Assembly (NCBI GenBank): GCA_002869065.1 | Contig: PKTR01000002.1 | Span: 62,001-126,000, forward strand | Reading direction: 5' to 3' | Source of the DNA: Hyphomicrobiales bacterium | GTDB taxonomy: Bacteria; Pseudomonadota; Alphaproteobacteria; Rhizobiales; Rhodobiaceae | DNA length: 64,000 nt | Shown here: positions 2,654 through 52,443 of the stretch, piece by piece | How the letters are laid out: every line of letters begins with the position of its first letter | Numbering within the stretch: position 1 is the stretch's first letter | Translations under genes and position numbers: made by a program | Notes under the pieces: generated by a model | Databases searched by the model: none | What the model saw: the letters and a program-made list of their open reading frames with translations, nothing else | What the model was told of the DNA's origin: nothing

Positions 2654-5125
2654 ATGACGCGACCGATCGGCGGACGCGACTTCGCGTCGAGCCCAGGCAG
2701 CTTTTTCGCCCGGTTCGGCGGCGCGTTCTTTGGCGCACTCCTGCTGCTCGTGCTCATGGAGCAGATCGGCCTGTCGCTATCGGTGATCACCGTGGCGATT
2801 CCGCTGCTTCTCGTCATTCTCTATGCCGGTATCGGAGTCGGCGCGCGCACGCTGCACGTGGATGCGTTTTTCGTCACCGGACGGCAGATGCCGGCGGTCG
2901 CCAACGGCATGGCGATGGCCGCCAACGGGCTCGCCGGTGCGGTCGTCGTCGGCCTTGCCGGGCTGATCGCCAACGAAGGTTACGATGCGCTTGCCTACGG
3001 CCTCGGGCTCACCGGCGGGTTTGCCCTGATCGCCATCGCGATCGCGCCGCGTCTGCGCGCGTTCGAGGTCTACACGGTCCCCGATTTCCTGTCGGTGCGG
3101 TTCGGCAGCGATATCGCCCGCCTGCTCGGCCTGATCGTGCTGATCGCCTGTTCGTTCCCGTTCCTCGTCGCGCAACTCGGCGCCATGGGCACGATTGCCG
3201 GTCGTTTTCTCGACCTGTCCTTCCAGACCTCGGTGCTGTTGAGCCTCGCGGTGATCCTTTCCTGCACGCTGCTCGGCGGCATGCGCGGGGTGAGCTGGAC
3301 GCAAGCGGCGCAATATGTGGTGATCGCGGTCGCCTATCTGCTGCCGGCGATCTGGCTGTCGGTGCAGGTTGCCGGCAATCCGATCCCGCCGCTGGCGCTC
3401 GGCGACCTCGTGCACAGTGTCGCCGACATCGAGCGGGCGGGCGGCACCCTGAGCGCAGCGACCCTGTCGCTTCTGGAGCCGCAGTCAGCGCCCGCCACGC
3501 AGGACAGCTTCAACTTCCTGGCCCTGCTCGTCACGCTGGTCGCGGGTACCGCCGCCATGCCGCATATCCTGACGCGCTCGCTGACCGCGCCTTCGGTCGT
3601 GGAGACCCGGCGGGCAAGCGCCTGGGCGGTCGTCTTCGTTGCGGCCATCGTGCTGACCGCACCGGCGCTCGGACTGCTGGTCAAGCATGAAGTTCTGGCG
3701 CTCACCGTCGGCACCAGCGTTGCCGAACTCGCCGACAAGGCAGGCTGGCTGCTCGGCACCGGCGATACGGGCGCGGCGATTGCCCGGCTGTGCGGCGCCG
3801 ATGCGATCGACCTTGCGGTTGTGACGCGCGCCTGCGGCGACAGCGGCTATCGGCTTGCCACCGCCGACATCGCGCTCAACGCGGAACTCGCCGTGCTGGC
3901 CGCGCCGGAGATCGCCGGCCTTCCCTTTGCCATCTCCGCCCTGGTCGTCGTCGGTGCCCTGAGCGCGTTCCTTTCGACGGCGAACGGGCTGCTGATCACG
4001 CTGAGCGCCGGGCTCGGTCACGACCTCTATCACAAGCTCCTTGACCGGCGCGCGCCGACCGCCCGGCGGATCATCGCCGCCCGCCTTGCTGTGATTGCGA
4101 CCGCCGGCGCCGCGGCCTGGGCCACCCTTGCCGGACCGCCGGACTTCCTGACGTTGTTCGAATGGAGCTTCTCGCTCGCGGCGGCCGGCCTGTTCCCGGT
4201 TCTGGTGCTCGGGCTTTGGTGGTCCGACACGACTCGGTCCGCGGCGATTGTCGGCATGATCGTCGGCTTCGGTCTGACCGCCTTCTACCTCGCGGCCAAC
4301 ACTTACGGCTTCGACAAGATCCCCGGCAATGGCGACGAACTCGTCTGGCACATTCCCGGCATCACGACGGCCATCGCCGTTGAGGGCGCCGGCATTCTCG
4401 GCATTGCCGCCGGATTCATTGTCATCGCCGGCCTGACCCTCGTCACCCGCGAACGCAAACCCCGGCCCGAGCCGGTCGTCCCCGCCGACGATGCGGAAAC
4501 TTCGGAAGTGGCAGGCGCCACCGGCGACGAGCCCGCGTCGCCCGAGCCGGTTGAGGCCGAAACGGCAGCGATCGAAGAACCAGTCGAACCTGAAGCCGAT
4601 GAGGCGAAGGCGGATCCCAAATCCGAAGATCCGGCCGCCCCTTCGACCGAAACGTCAGACGCTGAATCCGAAACGGAAGCGCCAGAACCCGGCAACGAGA
4701 CAGCAGAAGGCGATGCCGGTGACACGCCCGGCGAACAAACAGTCGAGCAACCTTCCGAGGCGGCCGGCGAGAAGCAGGCAGAAGATGCACCGGCTGACGC
4801 ACAGGACGGGGAGAGCGTGCCTGCGGCCGTCCCCGCCAGCGAGGAACGAGCCGCCGCTTTGGAAGGGCCTGCGAACGAAAGCGTGCCCGCTGAAGACCCC
4901 GCGCTGGACACCAAAGCGGACAGCGAGAAAGCCGGCGCAGCCGCGAAGCCGGCCGGCGGAACCAAGGCCAAACCGACAAAGCGCACGAGACGCGGCTCGA
5001 CGGCGAAGAGTTCTTCGGCAAAGAACGGCACCGGTTCCCGCGCCTCCCGCGCGAAGAAACCGGCGAAGCCCCGCAGCCGCAAGAAACCCGATACTCCGCC
5101 GGACAACGGCACGCCCAAGGGCTAG
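2654..5125 (+). CDS. ActP-like sodium:solute (cation/acetate) symporter with long charged C-terminal tail
   Basis: An 823-residue SSS-family transporter. Residues to about 598 contain the membrane core with the family signature after helix 1 (FFVTGRQMPAVANGMAMAANG), ending with a helix before RERKPRPEP. Family members are usually 550-600 residues. Here about 225 further residues form a low-complexity tail, first Glu/Ala/Pro-rich and acidic, then strongly Lys/Arg-rich from about residue 766 (KAKPTKRTRR, RSRKKP). I chose ATG 2654 because GAGG lies 6 bases upstream; TTG 2633 and ATG 2642 are in frame but have poor ribosome sites. Together with DUF4212 and the nearby kinase/regulator it probably imports acetate or a similar short carboxylate (inference from family and context). 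The tail is unusual, although the frame is intact. Confidence 0.87.
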   Translation: MTRPIGGRDFASSPGSFFARFGGAFFGALLLLVLMEQIGLSLSVITVAIPLLLVILYAGIGVGARTLHVDAFFVTGRQMPAVANGMAMAANGLAGAVVVGLAGLIANEGYDALAYGLGLTGGFALIAIAIAPRLRAFEVYTVPDFLSVRFGSDIARLLGLIVLIACSFPFLVAQLGAMGTIAGRFLDLSFQTSVLLSLAVILSCTLLGGMRGVSWTQAAQYVVIAVAYLLPAIWLSVQVAGNPIPPLALGDLVHSVADIERAGGTLSAATLSLLEPQSAPATQDSFNFLALLVTLVAGTAAMPHILTRSLTAPSVVETRRASAWAVVFVAAIVLTAPALGLLVKHEVLALTVGTSVAELADKAGWLLGTGDTGAAIARLCGADAIDLAVVTRACGDSGYRLATADIALNAELAVLAAPEIAGLPFAISALVVVGALSAFLSTANGLLITLSAGLGHDLYHKLLDRRAPTARRIIAARLAVIATAGAAAWATLAGPPDFLTLFEWSFSLAAAGLFPVLVLGLWWSDTTRSAAIVGMIVGFGLTAFYLAANTYGFDKIPGNGDELVWHIPGITTAIAVEGAGILGIAAGFIVIAGLTLVTRERKPRPEPVVPADDAETSEVAGATGDEPASPEPVEAETAAIEEPVEPEADEAKADPKSEDPAAPSTETSDAESETEAPEPGNETAEGDAGDTPGEQTVEQPSEAAGEKQAEDAPADAQDGESVPAAVPASEERAAALEGPANESVPAEDPALDTKADSEKAGAAAKPAGGTKAKPTKRTRRGSTAKSSSAKNGTGSRASRAKKPAKPRSRKKPDTPPDNGTPKG

Positions 5126-16534: not shown

Positions 16535-16638
16535 TAGAGCGCTATCCGTTCCAACTGAATCGAATTGACATTCGTTTCTGTTGTTTTTCCCGCATCATCT
16601 TGTCGATCCTCGTTCCACTACGGTCGGATGATGCTCTA
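16535..16638. repeat. intergenic palindromic repeat region with TAGAGC ends
   Basis: Non-coding DNA between the GST and acyl-CoA dehydrogenase genes. It begins with TAGAGC at 16535 and ends with GCTCTA at 16633-16638. GCATCATC (16593-16600) pairs perfectly with GATGATGC (16627-16634). The final CTA is the stop codon TAG of the minus-strand dehydrogenase. The same end motif recurs at 11728, 37633, 38291 and 42278, which suggests a dispersed RIME/REP-like element of the kind common in Hyphomicrobiales. Confidence 0.6.
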
Positions 16639-18429
16639 GAAGGCTTCGACGGGCATCGCCATCACGGTTTCGGCACCGGCGGTGACGCGGGCGAGATGGA
16701 CCGCGGTTTCCGGCATCATCTGCTCCATGAAGAAGCGGCCGGTCAGCAGCTTCGCCTCGTAGTAGGCATCGCGGCCTTCGGCGCCGGCGGCGAGTTTTTC
16801 CTGCGCGACCTTGGCCATGCGCGCCCACATGTAGCCGAGCGCGACGAGGCCGAAGAGATGCATGAAAGCGACCGAGCCTGCACCGGCATTGTCAGGCGCC
16901 TTCATGGCGTTGTTCATGAACCACATGGTCGCCTTCTGCAGTTCCTCGGCGCCCTTTTGCAGCGGCGCGAGATAGGGCGCGAGGTCGGCGTTCTCGGCGT
17001 TGGCCTGCAGGAAGCCGCCGACTTCGGCAAAGAACGCCATCACCGCGCGGCCGCCATTGGCGCCGAGCTTGCGGCCGACCAGGTCGAGCGCCTGAATGCC
17101 GTTGGCGCCCTCATAGATCATCGCGATGCGGGCATCGCGGACGAATTGCTCCATGCCCCATTCGGCGATGTAGCCATGGCCGCCGAAGACCTGCTGCGCC
17201 ATCACCGCATTGTCGAAACCGGTATCGGTCAGCACGCCCTTCAGCACCGGGGTGAGCAGGCCAACCGCATCCTCGGCGGCGGTCGCTTCCTTTTCATCGG
17301 CACTGCGGCGGGAGATATCGGCCTTCAGCGAGGCCCAGAGAAGGAGCGCGCGCGCGGCCTCGTTGAACGCCTTGATCCGCAGCAGCATGCGGCGCACATC
17401 CGGGTGGACGATGATCGGGTCGGCCGGGCCGTCGGGGTTCTTGGCGCCGGTCAGCGCGCGGCCCTGCAGCCGGTCCTTCGCGTAGGCCGCCGCGTTCTGA
17501 TAGGCGACCTCGGACTGGGCGAGACCTTGCGTTGCCACGCCGAGCCGCGCCTCGTTCATCATCGTGAACATGGCGCGCAGGCCCTTGTTCTCCTCGCCGA
17601 TCAGCCAGCCGGTCGCGCCGTCGAAATTCATTACGCAGGTGGCATTGCCGTGGATGCCCATCTTTTCCTCGAGCGCGCCGCAGGTCACGGCATTTGCCGC
17701 GCCAAGCGTGCCGTCGCTCTCGGCCATCACCTTCGGGACGACGAAGAGCGAAATGCCCTTGGTGCCTTCCGGCGCGCCCTCGATGCGGGCGAGCACCAGA
17801 TGGACGATATTCTCGGCCATGTCGTGGTCGCCGGCGGAGATGAAGATCTTGGTTCCGGTGATGCGGTAAGAACCATCGCCGGCAGGCGCGGCCTTGGTAC
17901 GGATAAGACCGAGATCGGTGCCGCAATGGGGCTCGGTCAGGTTCATCGTGCCGGTCCAGCGGCCCGAGGCGAGCTTGGTCAGATAGAGCGCCTTCTGCTC
18001 GTCGGAGCCGTGCTGGGTAATCGCGGCGATCGCGCCCTGAGTCAGGCCGGGATACATGCTCCAGGCCATGTTGGCCGCGGAGGTGAACTCGTTCATCGCG
18101 GTGGCGAGTACAAAGGGCAGACCCTGGCCGCCATAGGCGGGATCGGCGGAGAGCCCGACCCAGCCGGCCTCGGCATAGGCTTCGTAGGCTTCCTTGAAGC
18201 CCTTGGGCGCGCTTACCGCGCCGTTCTCGCCGCGTGTGCAGCCGTCCTTGTCGCCGATCTGGTTGAGCGGCTGGATCTGTTCGGCGCAGAACTTGCCGCC
18301 TTCCTCGAGGATCGCAGCCACGAGATCGGGCGTCGCGTCCTCGAAACCGGGGAGCTCCGCGTGGTCGGCGAAACCGAGCACATCCAGAACGAAAAGCGTG
18401 TCATCAACCGGGGCAACATAACTCGGCAT
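16636..18429 (-). CDS. acyl-CoA dehydrogenase with C-terminal extension
   Basis: A 597-residue FAD-dependent acyl-CoA dehydrogenase of the long 3-methylmercaptopropionyl-CoA dehydrogenase/AidB-like type. FAD/substrate motifs NLTEPHCGTDLG, KIFISAGDHD and QVFGGHGYIAEWG are visible. The catalytic base Glu lies in IYEGANGIQALDLVGRKL, and a helical extension follows. It introduces the 2,3 double bond into acyl-CoA. ATG 18429 is preceded by AAGGGAAG. Its promoter region carries a perfect-arm 20-bp palindrome (18541-18560) of MerR-operator style, and a MerR gene lies upstream on the same strand. It is the first gene of the beta-oxidation cluster; the gap of about 190 bp before GST contains repeats, so it may be a separate transcript. 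Confidence 0.92.
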   Translation of the reverse strand: MPSYVAPVDDTLFVLDVLGFADHAELPGFEDATPDLVAAILEEGGKFCAEQIQPLNQIGDKDGCTRGENGAVSAPKGFKEAYEAYAEAGWVGLSADPAYGGQGLPFVLATAMNEFTSAANMAWSMYPGLTQGAIAAITQHGSDEQKALYLTKLASGRWTGTMNLTEPHCGTDLGLIRTKAAPAGDGSYRITGTKIFISAGDHDMAENIVHLVLARIEGAPEGTKGISLFVVPKVMAESDGTLGAANAVTCGALEEKMGIHGNATCVMNFDGATGWLIGEENKGLRAMFTMMNEARLGVATQGLAQSEVAYQNAAAYAKDRLQGRALTGAKNPDGPADPIIVHPDVRRMLLRIKAFNEAARALLLWASLKADISRRSADEKEATAAEDAVGLLTPVLKGVLTDTGFDNAVMAQQVFGGHGYIAEWGMEQFVRDARIAMIYEGANGIQALDLVGRKLGANGGRAVMAFFAEVGGFLQANAENADLAPYLAPLQKGAEELQKATMWFMNNAMKAPDNAGAGSVAFMHLFGLVALGYMWARMAKVAQEKLAAGAEGRDAYYEAKLLTGRFFMEQMMPETAVHLARVTAGAETVMAMPVEAF

Positions 18430-18540
18430 GGTTCTTCCCTTTCTGCGGCCTTTCGGGGAGGCTGGCGTCCCGGCGGGCGGATGCGACAAGCATCGCGCGG
18501 GAGGCAGACGACCCGCTCGGCATTTCCCGAGTCATATACA

Positions 18541-18560
18541 TTACGTTCTCGTAAACGTAA
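18541..18560. promoter_or_regulatory. MerR-type operator palindrome before the acyl-CoA dehydrogenase
   Basis: TTACGTTCTCGTAAACGTAA is a 20-bp inverted repeat with 7-base perfect arms (TTACGTT/AACGTAA) and a matching central CG. It lies 112 bases upstream of the dehydrogenase start. A second 20-bp palindrome of similar TNACGT-rich layout lies upstream of merR. MerR proteins of the LiuR type bind such sites in promoters of acyl-CoA catabolic genes, so this is the probable control site of the fatty-acid cluster (inference). Confidence 0.7.
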
Positions 18561-18580
18561 ACTGCAAACCAAATGCATGG

Positions 18581-18644
18581 TGACGCAAAAGGAAAGCCCC
18601 GCTCCGGCGCCGCGTGGTGCGGGCTGGAACGGGGCTTTTCGGTC
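18581..18644. terminator. terminator hairpin, copy A of a 64-bp direct repeat
   Basis: The stem GAAAGCCCCG (18592-18601) faces CGGGGCTTTTC (18630-18640) across a GC-rich loop. The A-run on one side and T-run on the other make it a bidirectional factor-independent terminator. It is the same as copy B (19688-19751) except for 5 consecutive loop bases (TGGTG here, AAAGA there). It separates the dehydrogenase promoter from the inserted segment. Confidence 0.8.
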
Positions 18645-18774
18645 CGAAATGGCAGTAATAACAGATGTTTTGCGCCCTTTTAGTAGTATTTCGACGCCCT
18701 ATATACTTTATAGTGCATTCACATGGTAAGTGCGGTCGCGCCGCCTGTCTCTATTCAGCCACGCCGAGTTCAAC

Positions 18775-20292
18775 ATGTCACGTAGGCCAAAAATCAGATT
18801 CTGCGCCAGTCACAACGGGCTAGACCGAGAACTTTTTCATATTCAGGAACTTAAAGACTTTAGCTTACTCTTGACCATCCGGAGCGCCGACGAGCTAAGA
18901 GGCGTGGCGCCAGAGCTTTCGGGCAAGAAAATTCGCGAGCAACGCTACTCAATCCATCGCAGCCAGAATAGCGAAAACGGCACTGATACAATCAAACACA
19001 CCCTGGTTCCCCAAACCGGAAAAAAAACCGAATCGTACTGCCATGCCAAAGCACTACGCAAAGGCAATGTTATTCAGGTATTTGCAAAATCCTGCCCCGA
19101 TTTCAGCGGCGAGTCCTACGCCTGCCACCCACGCAAAAAGGATACCGTCAAGCAAATTGGAAACTTTTATCCTTCCGAATTCAGACTCCATTTAATTGTA
19201 GCTGTTTCTTCTGTGGAAGCTCCTTCGCCTCCCGAAAGCTCAACATGGATTACAAATCGCCATAACTTCGAAAAAATTTCGGTTCTGGTTTTTCACTGCT
19301 TCAGCAATCTGGCGGCTGGGCGAAACGGAGATTTGTACCATTCCGTGACGCTCCCCGTCTCAATCGACGGCGCAAAACCGCAATGGTCACTCAAGCCTGA
19401 GGCAAATGGGGTGCCTCCCGGTGTCCTTCCTGCAAATATCGCCGCAATGTTCAAGAAAATGCACGATTCCGCCGTAGATGCGATTTTCGCAGACAATGCG
19501 AGCGTGCAACTTCCGCCTTCAAGTGACAAAATTCGGTTCGCAATGAAAAAAAGTCGGCCCTGGCCTTCTCACAAGAGAAGAGTTTTTACGCAGAGCAAAT
19601 CTAATTCAGAGTGCTTTTCAATAGTGTTTCCTGAGCGAACTTGCCGGCCAAGAGTTCTTCAAAACACCCAGCCCTCAAGTCTGACCCTGACGCAAAAGGA
19701 AAGCCCCGCTCCGGCGCCGCGAAAGACGGGCTGGAACGGGGCTTTTCGGTCGGGGGAGGATGTAGTCGGCGCGCCGCTTGGGCGCGAATTTCGGGCGCTG
19801 AATTCAGGCGCCGTCGCGGGCTTCCTTCTCGCGCAGAATGCCGGACACGATCTCGACGGTGCGGCGCAATTCGTCGACGGCCTGCTCGATGTCTTTCTTC
19901 TGCTCCTCGAGGACGGCGATCTGCTCGTGGAACTTGCCGAGCGCCACGCGCATCTGCGTCACCTGACCGTCGCGCAGGTCGTAAAGGTCGAGCATGTCCC
20001 TGATTTCGTCGAGCGAGAAGCCGACGCGCTTGCCCATGAGAACGAGCTTCAGGCGGGCCCGGTCGCGACGGCTGTAGACGCGCGTCGAGCCGTTGCGGCG
20101 CGGCCGGATGAGGCCGCGATCCTCATAGAAGCGCAAGGTCCGCAGCGTTACGTCGAATTCCTTGGCGAGATCGCCGATGGAATAGCTGGTCTTGTTGCCG
20201 TCGTCGGGAACGGCGCGCTCGGCCACCGTGCGGCCAAGGTCAGCGCCGGAACGAGCAGCATCGGTGTCAGACATGGGTGCTCCGAGCGGTAG
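18775..20292 (+). CDS. unrecognised gene in low-GC insert; frame reads through terminator and antisense to merR
   Basis: I do not recognise this protein. From ATG 18775 (or GTG 18730, adding 15 residues) the first 305 or so residues read as a real, non-repetitive protein, with several Cys/His residues, basic patches and no signal peptide or membrane helix. Composition differs from the surroundings: bases 19021-19080 contain only 25 G+C of 60. At about 19688 the frame enters the duplicated terminator and continues without a stop, antisense across the whole of merR, to 20292. The native stop therefore seems to have been lost, or the product carries about 200 non-native residues. The ribosome site is weak. 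It is plausibly an acquired, possibly 3'-truncated accessory gene; function is unknown. Confidence 0.5.
   Translation: MSRRPKIRFCASHNGLDRELFHIQELKDFSLLLTIRSADELRGVAPELSGKKIREQRYSIHRSQNSENGTDTIKHTLVPQTGKKTESYCHAKALRKGNVIQVFAKSCPDFSGESYACHPRKKDTVKQIGNFYPSEFRLHLIVAVSSVEAPSPPESSTWITNRHNFEKISVLVFHCFSNLAAGRNGDLYHSVTLPVSIDGAKPQWSLKPEANGVPPGVLPANIAAMFKKMHDSAVDAIFADNASVQLPPSSDKIRFAMKKSRPWPSHKRRVFTQSKSNSECFSIVFPERTCRPRVLQNTQPSSLTLTQKESPAPAPRKTGWNGAFRSGEDVVGAPLGREFRALNSGAVAGFLLAQNAGHDLDGAAQFVDGLLDVFLLLLEDGDLLVELAERHAHLRHLTVAQVVKVEHVPDFVEREADALAHENELQAGPVATAVDARRAVAARPDEAAILIEAQGPQRYVEFLGEIADGIAGLVAVVGNGALGHRAAKVSAGTSSIGVRHGCSER
19688..19751. terminator. terminator hairpin, copy B of a 64-bp direct repeat, 3' of merR
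   Basis: Second copy of the hairpin described at 18581-18644, in the same orientation, with 59 of 64 bases identical. On the minus strand it lies 52 bases after the merR stop, with stem AAAAGCCCCG/CGGGGCTTT followed by CCTTTT. It therefore serves as the merR terminator. The pair brackets the low-GC segment 18645-19687. Confidence 0.8.
19804..20274 (-). CDS. MerR-family transcriptional regulator (LiuR-like)
   Basis: A 156-residue MerR protein. The winged-helix N-terminus carries YSIGDLAKEFDVTLRTLRFYEDRGLIRP and RVYSRRDRARL, followed by a dimerising coiled coil (KFHEQIAVLEEQKKDIEQAVDEL) and a short C-terminus. It has no metal-binding Cys cluster, as in regulators of acyl-CoA or branched-chain catabolism. 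ATG 20274 follows GGAG. A near-perfect 20-bp palindrome 41 bases upstream suggests autoregulation, and a related palindrome precedes the acyl-CoA dehydrogenase. It probably represses the fatty-acid cluster and senses an acyl-CoA (inference). Confidence 0.9.
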   Translation of the reverse strand: MSDTDAARSGADLGRTVAERAVPDDGNKTSYSIGDLAKEFDVTLRTLRFYEDRGLIRPRRNGSTRVYSRRDRARLKLVLMGKRVGFSLDEIRDMLDLYDLRDGQVTQMRVALGKFHEQIAVLEEQKKDIEQAVDELRRTVEIVSGILREKEARDGA

Positions 20293-20314
20293 GATTGGAT
20301 GGCCGGCCTATAGA

Positions 20315-20334
20315 TGACGTTGACGTCACCGTCA
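20315..20334. promoter_or_regulatory. MerR-type operator palindrome before merR
   Basis: TGACGTTGACGTCACCGTCA is a 20-bp inverted repeat with a single mismatched pair (T/C at the sixth position of each arm). It lies 41 bases upstream of the merR start, where autoregulatory MerR sites are expected. Its layout parallels the palindrome at 18541-18560. Confidence 0.65.
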
Positions 20335-20503
20335 AGAGATTTGTGATTTACTTGGGGGGATACGGGGCCCGGCCGGGAGGCTGCCGGCTCGCGGCAAATG
20401 ACCTTCGGCCTGCCGTTGGGGAAGTCGAGGTTAGCGGGGCAGAGCGCAGCAAGGGCTTCTGTGCCTTGCCGCGTTACCGGAACATTGCCCGTCAGGCCAA
20501 TGG

Positions 20504-20518
20504 TTAACGGCTTGTTTA
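20504..20518. promoter_or_regulatory. CtrA-like binding box upstream of podJ
   Basis: TTAACGGCTTGTTTA matches the CtrA consensus TTAA-N7-TTAA with one mismatch in the second half-site. It lies about 120 bases upstream of the start of podJ, a gene that is cell-cycle controlled in related bacteria. One degenerate box can occur by chance, so this is a candidate only. Confidence 0.45.
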
Positions 20519-20638
20519 CCATAAACGCTGCATTTTGCGACACGCGCAGTCGGGCGTCGTGTGCGCCGAACTCCATCTTGTGACTGCAGACGTATTCCCC
20601 CTGTGTTTTACAGGGCGGCACAAAAAGTGAGGCCGTAT

Positions 20639-51067: not shown

Positions 51068-51715
51068 ATGACCGACATTCTCTGGACCCGGCCCGAGGGC
51101 CCTTCGCACGGCACATTCGTCTTCGCGCATGGCGCCGGTGTCGGTATGGACTCACCGTTCATGGCGGCGATCCCGGAAAATCTTCTGGCGCTCGGGATAA
51201 CGACCGCGCGGTTCGAATTCGCCTATATGGCAGGAAGGCGGACAGGCGGGTCGAAGCGCCCGCCGCCCCGCGCCGACAAGCTCATTCCGGAATATGAGGC
51301 GGCCATTGCCGAGGTGCTCGCCGGGTGCGATGGACCGGTGGTAATCGGCGGCAAGTCGATGGGCGGACGGGTCGCGGCGATGGTCGCAGGTCTCGAAGGA
51401 CTCGACGCCCGCGTGTGCGGCGTCGCCTGCCTTGGCTACCCGTTTCATGCGCCTGGCAAGCCCGACGCGGTGCGGCTCGATCCGCTTCTGGGTGCCCGCT
51501 TGCCAGTGCTCATCGCGCAGGGCGAGCGTGACCCGTTCGGCAAACGCGAGGAGGTCGAGGCGCTGCCGCTTCCCGCCTCCGTTTCGGTGATGTGGCTTGA
51601 TGACGGCGACCACGATCTCGCGCCACGCGGACGGGCGGCAGCGACGCGCACCGGCAATCTGCAGCGGACAGCGGAAGCGATTTCGGCATTTTTCGCGCGC
51701 GTTTCGGGCAGCTGA
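51068..51715 (+). CDS. KANL3/Tex30-like alpha/beta hydrolase, copy 1
   Basis: A 215-residue dienelactone-hydrolase-like enzyme: oxyanion region AHGAGVGMDSPF, nucleophile elbow GGKSMGGR, Asp in QGERDPFG and His in DDGDHDLAP. The next gene encodes a close paralogue in the same direction 89 bases on, so the pair arose by tandem duplication. The natural substrate is unknown. Confidence 0.87.
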   Translation: MTDILWTRPEGPSHGTFVFAHGAGVGMDSPFMAAIPENLLALGITTARFEFAYMAGRRTGGSKRPPPRADKLIPEYEAAIAEVLAGCDGPVVIGGKSMGGRVAAMVAGLEGLDARVCGVACLGYPFHAPGKPDAVRLDPLLGARLPVLIAQGERDPFGKREEVEALPLPASVSVMWLDDGDHDLAPRGRAAATRTGNLQRTAEAISAFFARVSGS

Positions 51716-51804: not shown

Positions 51805-52443
51805 GTGACTGACATTCTCTGGACCCGGCCCGACGGGCGTTCACAGGGCACCTTCCTTCTCGCGCATGGCAGCGGCGCGGGAATGGATACGCCATTCCTT
51901 TCCCCGCTCGCGCAGAATCTGGCATCGCTCGGCGTGACGACAGCGCGTTTCGAATTCGCCTTCATGACGGAACGCCTCACGCGCAACCCGAAGCAGCCCG
52001 AGTCGCCGATTTCGGAACTGGTGGTGGAATTCAGGGCCGCCATTGCGGCCACACTCGCGGGAAGCGACGGACCCGTCGTGATCGGCGGAAAATCGTTGGG
52101 GGGCCGGGTCGCGGCATGGGTTGGCCGGGCTCCCTCGTTGGACCCGCGTGTTTGCGGCATCGTCAGTCTCGGCTACCCGCTCAGCCCTCCCAAACGGCGG
52201 GAGATCGTGCGGCTGAAGCCGCTTCTTGAGGCACGCCTTCCCCTCCTCGTCATGCAAGGTGAACAGGATCCTTACGGCACACCGGAGATGTTCGAAGGCC
52301 TGGACCTGCCCGCAAGCGTGACATTTCACTGGTTCGCGGACGGGATGCACGATCTGTTTCCCGAAGTGTGCACCGACGCCGAGCGCAACCAGCGATCGCG
52401 GCAGATGGCCGAGGTCGTCGCCGCATATGTACGCGGATTTTAG
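51805..52443 (+). CDS. KANL3/Tex30-like alpha/beta hydrolase, copy 2
   Basis: A 212-residue paralogue of the preceding gene. The proteins share the opening MTDILWTRP and all catalytic motifs (AHGSGAGMDTPF, GGKSLGGR, QGEQDPYG, DGMHDLFP) but differ widely elsewhere, for example in the loop after the second strand. The duplication is therefore old and the copies may have different substrates. The start is GTG 51805, preceded by AAAGGG. The region between the copies carries no clear terminator. Confidence 0.87.
   Translation: MTDILWTRPDGRSQGTFLLAHGSGAGMDTPFLSPLAQNLASLGVTTARFEFAFMTERLTRNPKQPESPISELVVEFRAAIAATLAGSDGPVVIGGKSLGGRVAAWVGRAPSLDPRVCGIVSLGYPLSPPKRREIVRLKPLLEARLPLLVMQGEQDPYGTPEMFEGLDLPASVTFHWFADGMHDLFPEVCTDAERNQRSRQMAEVVAAYVRGF

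Follow-up and report, generated by a model that had tools for sequence, protein, structure and literature searches.

A low-G+C segment with a prophage-related open frame, probably inserted recently, lies between two copies of a merR terminator in a Hyphomicrobiales genome

Transcription terminators are known targets of Tn7, which inserts at the glmS terminator, and of group IIC introns. In E. coli, single crossovers of circular molecules via partial homology leave duplications of 109 to 950 bp (PMC3240628), and in Neisseria the gene aroX, located next to terminator-type inverted repeats made of paired uptake sequences, is present or absent depending on the strain (PMC1431543). The locus investigated here lies in a 64-kb stretch of DNA from a Hyphomicrobiales bacterium, referred to as the window, and consists of an AT-rich segment flanked by two copies of a terminator, between a merR-family gene and an acyl-CoA dehydrogenase gene. 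Its features are as follows, with positions given relative to the window.

16636..18429, minus strand: acyl-CoA dehydrogenase gene, the downstream neighbour (Pfam acyl-CoA dehydrogenase domains)
18540..18564, no strand assigned: operator-like sequence ATTACGTTCTCGTAAACGTAAACTG, upstream of the dehydrogenase gene
18581..18644, minus strand: left terminator repeat, with the + strand loop TGGTG, now separating the segment from the operator of the dehydrogenase gene
18645..19687, no strand assigned: AT-rich, putatively inserted segment of 1,043 bp and 48.6% G+C, missing in 14 syntenic relatives
18775..19686, plus strand: cargo open frame, 304 codons within the segment, stopless there and open to 20292, with a relative in a Kaistia prophage
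19688..19751, minus strand: right terminator repeat, with the + strand loop AAAGA, placed as the merR terminator
19804..20274, minus strand: MerR-family regulator gene, the upstream neighbour (Pfam MerR_1, E 3.3e-18)

The two direct repeats are 64 nt each with a spacing of 1,107 nt and match at 59 of 64 positions (92%), confirming to the base the pair that had been reported in the preliminary description as differing in five loop bases. All of the mismatches fall in columns 35 to 39 (TGGTG versus AAAGA) and coincide with the 5-nt loop at the apex of the predicted hairpin. The remaining 59 positions are identical, including 10 nt upstream and 4 nt downstream that lie outside the + strand hairpin. 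Strong folding was predicted for both copies, with energies of -36.7 to -39.6 kcal/mol and z scores of -4.1 to -5.8. The right copy follows the merR stop codon at a distance of 52 nt, where the terminator of this gene would be expected, and the left copy is immediately upstream of the dehydrogenase operator-like sequence; motifs related to the latter occur at the same place in the intervals of relatives (L026, L027, L031, L033, and L039). A search for the 64-bp unit across the 4.04-Mb genome (seven contigs) returned only these two copies, ruling out an ordinary multicopy terminator family, which had been named as an alternative. The chance that five randomly placed mismatches would be contiguous is about 8e-6 (P), which points either to a single block event or to a loop difference that was present originally. 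Apart from this block, the duplication appears to be young, judging from the repeats themselves. A search for a local template for either loop block found none, and the restriction of all five mismatches to the hairpin loop is the one detail that an insertion leaves unexplained.

Between the repeats, the approximately 1.04 kb of AT-richer DNA noted previously was measured at 1,043 bp and 48.6% G+C, compared with ~65% in the surroundings, making it the lowest-G+C kilobase of the window. Third-position G+C is 0.50 in the cargo open frame and 0.85 in each neighbour gene. The + strand open run in the segment spans 319 codons, against a maximum of 280 among 2,000 first-order Markov randomised sequences, and the cargo frame likely starts at 18775. 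It is the single open frame of the segment and does not encode an integrase, bearing out the earlier statement that neither a transposase nor an integrase is present. Missing from the preliminary description was that the frame has no stop codon within the segment and continues across the right repeat as far as 20292, in antisense orientation to merR. A transcript that ended at the terminator would carry no stop codon, so that the cargo gene is probably truncated at its 3' end. A stopless frame is likewise a poor fit to a tidy, self-contained cassette.

No significant match to the cargo protein was obtained in Pfam, NCBIfam, PADLOC, PHROGs, or PDB. Among 397 genomes of the order, the sole relative was identified in Kaistia dalseonensis (BLASTP, 29% over 193 residues, E 2e-16). 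The gene for this 325-residue product lies directly downstream of that for a DUF6538 tyrosine integrase, which it overlaps, beside tRNA-Ser, and is likewise AT-rich compared with its host. The surrounding prophage carries terminase- and portal-like genes, as judged by eye from their translations, and is also present as an IMG/VR viral contig. Apart from this protein, no relative was found in 28 genomes of the Kaistia family, in pattern-based scans of about 85,000 genomes and of plasmids, phages, and IMG/VR, or by class- and phylum-level profile searches. Structure predictions for the window protein and the Kaistia protein had pLDDT values of 29.5 and 33.3, respectively, too low for use. As its sole relative resides in a prophage and these wide searches returned no others, the cargo looks like phage-type accessory DNA encoding a member of a very rare protein family.

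A close merR orthologue was identified in 21 genomes, with the window's own genome counted. In 14 syntenic relatives from the same order, the dehydrogenase orthologue lies directly downstream of merR, separated from it by a gap of 44 to 340 bp with no inserted gene. The gap here is 1,377 bp, which falls to 270 bp once the segment and one repeat are subtracted. The short gap in these relatives, none of which (0/14) carries the segment, makes an insertion in this lineage very likely and, together with the unique repeats and the foreign cargo, supports the original claim of an insertion with duplication of the site; the opposite picture, in which close relatives all carry the segment, was not encountered. 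Two congeners (G001 and G002) were considered as empty-site controls and proved uninformative, the dehydrogenase gene being missing at this place in both. The interval comparison suggested in the preliminary description thus produced 14 relatives without the segment and no exact empty site, and it is against these syntenic relatives that the segment is judged very likely to be a foreign, apparently recent insertion with site duplication.

Other duplicated edges in the same genome were sought by a survey of direct repeats within 8 kb of each other, covering 1.68 Mb in all (1.284 Mb on contig C2 and 0.4 Mb on contig C1). The first direct-repeat scan recovered the known terminator pair; a hairpin-pair scan of 484 kb missed this pair at its thresholds and was not counted as evidence. 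No second duplicated terminator was identified in the 1.68 Mb by the direct-repeat survey. Two other partial duplications of host sequence that touch AT-rich accessory DNA were found in it, involving an IclR-family gene and trpE(G). In the IclR case, a direct repeat of ~46 to 57 bp (L051:2989-3045 and 4141-4197; G000:C2:188989-190197), with copies 1,152 bp apart and the left copy in the 3' part of the IclR-family gene, surrounds a segment of ~1.1 kb with 50 to 52% G+C. This segment contains two short open frames, perhaps one frame-shifted gene, with a subthreshold match to DUF2927, and no sequence is shared between it and the merR insert. In the trpE(G) case (L115:14950-18123; G000:C1:154950-158123), an AT-rich gene pair is followed by a 135-bp partial copy of the apparent 3' end, 95% identical and ~0.9 kb from the intact gene. 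One gene of the pair is ATPase-like, possibly with a role in defence (the pair and trpE(G) were named by eye), and the repeat pair does not enclose the AT-rich island. With duplicated edges of coding sequence beside foreign DNA in both cases, the pattern is not confined to terminators.

Direct repeats at C2:682161 and C2:741881 were rejected as comparable cases, as they are ordinary gene duplications. Within the window, a 189-bp direct repeat (51069-51257 and 51806-51994), 71% identical with copies 737 bp apart, probably reflects repeated protein domains. Two near-identical GC-rich hairpins (GCCCCGTTCC...GGAACGGGGC) 606 bp apart were identified in two metagenomic phage contigs (L044:2095-2750 and L046:6624-7279) and possibly represent a mobile hairpin repeat; they were rejected as a match to the merR pair, being a different repeat located in a phage tail region. 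On the same contig as the merR segment and 51 kb from it, a DUF6538 integrase gene was found adjacent to tRNA-Thr (L019:1-9600; G000:C2:20001-29600); beyond it lie AT-richer genes and one resembling a resolvase gene, and the whole appears to be an integrated island.

The recurrence of duplicated edges, the published single crossovers in E. coli (PMC3240628), and the Neisseria aroX case (PMC1431543) together favour additive recombination. The best explanation, to which we give about an even chance of being correct, is additive integration by single crossover of a terminator-bearing donor that carried a phage-type gene. It is supported by the unique repeats, the contrast in composition, the 14 syntenic relatives, and a cargo related to a prophage gene, and a duplicate of host sequence is found on both sides of the added DNA. 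The donor would have been a molecule, circular or not, that carried the same terminator with a different loop. Its terminator would have recombined with the resident merR terminator by a single crossover, which would place the cargo, with one terminator copy per side, between merR and the acyl-CoA dehydrogenase gene; we infer both the crossover route and the source of the second loop. The cargo may function poorly or not at all, given a frame with no stop before the terminator, and the identical blocks of 34 and 25 bp would permit recombination to remove the segment precisely, though rarely. Against a single crossover, an anchor of 64 bp is short for homologous recombination, and ordinary strain divergence fails to explain mismatches confined to the loop. 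A search of plasmids, phages, IMG/VR, and 61 relatives gave no donor in which this terminator adjoins the cargo, and the IclR and trpE(G) cases are no more than analogies for the merR segment.

The main rival, which we regard as possible but rather unlikely, is that a tyrosine recombinase integrated a phage or island here, with the repeats as its attL and attR sites. In this case, the recombinase would bind the hairpin arms, and the five loop bases would form a nonmatching overlap, for which the coupling sequences of Tn916 and CTnDOT provide the model, and the integrase would have been deleted later or supplied in trans. Direct repeats of 64 bp are present, but their central five bases differ, where attL and attR would be expected to share an identical crossover region. 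The imperfect inverted arms around this 5-bp centre, the only variable part, resemble a recombinase core site. Site-specific integration also fits the location of the cargo relative, whose gene immediately follows that of a DUF6538 tyrosine integrase in a prophage adjoining tRNA-Ser, and the IclR case, in which the duplicated 3' region resembles integration at a gene end. However, no recombinase is encoded by the segment, the sole DUF6538 integrase of the genome is 51 kb away beside tRNA-Thr, and the cargo frame is stopless; furthermore, the site has no third genomic copy and none in phages, plasmids, or IMG/VR. The position of all five mismatches in the loop would alternatively suit breakage of the hairpin, for example as a cruciform, followed by a repair in which a foreign fragment was captured, the terminator copied, and the loop rewritten. 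Hairpin-cutting nucleases are expected to act at the loop, but neither loop has a local template and simple end joining is not expected to yield a full 64-bp duplication, and this route is considered improbable.

Two further explanations assign an active role to the terminator. There is a slim chance that recombination takes place at the hairpin itself, where a recombinase supplied in trans would bind the arms, with exchange at the five-base loop, such that single genes slot in or out and the neighbours keep working terminators; were exchange at the loop to be demonstrated, terminators would emerge as places where genes can be captured reversibly. The dedicated gene-capture system aimed at terminator hairpins that was proposed in the preliminary description found no support and is judged very unlikely indeed. 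The target is a terminator and each neighbour keeps one, but this is a single case, with no second duplicated terminator in the surveyed 1.68 Mb, no recombinase, and an incomplete, stopless cargo frame, and the duplicate in the comparable IclR case is coding sequence. It is scarcely credible that no insertion took place and that an old resident gene lies between two independent, similar terminators. Either copy could terminate an adjacent gene, but the 59/64 identity includes the flanks and the stem imperfections and is unique in the genome, and both the gene and the widened gap are missing from relatives; this reading is largely excluded, as the identity extends past the hairpin and the pair is unique genome-wide. 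A transposon or MITE was rejected, as inverted ends are absent (best match, 9/16), the repeat is 64 bp, and the segment protein occurs once in the genome. A group II intron was rejected following an Rfam scan of positions 18300 to 20600, in which no intron match was obtained and the hairpins gave only subthreshold matches to an sRNA model. The repeat, as read by eye, presumably also has no integron consensus core sites.

Should the ordinary reading, additive integration, hold, the locus would be a clean and young example of a single foreign gene settling between host genes with their transcription unharmed, and would give a very rare protein family linked to prophages its second member. Processes related to this insertion have already been published. 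Prophages and islands integrated by tyrosine integrases similarly place foreign DNA within direct repeats of tens of base pairs, and the cargo relative is integrase linked, whereas here the integrase is absent, the segment is very small, and the mismatches all lie in the middle of the repeat. Tn7 and group IIC introns share with this locus a terminator as the target and neighbours that are left intact; however, the 5-bp duplication and transposition genes of Tn7 and the ribozyme of group IIC introns were not found here. The Neisseria aroX locus (PMC1431543) is similar in having a single accessory gene at terminator-like inverted repeats, with the terminator kept where aroX is gone, although the Neisseria terminators form a multicopy family built on the DNA uptake sequence and the repeat here has two genomic copies only. 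As in additive integration during E. coli conjugation (PMC3240628), foreign DNA lies between direct repeats of host sequence and no transposase is needed; the duplications there are 109 to 950 bp of lacZ, while here the duplicated sequence is a 64-bp terminator with a replaced loop.
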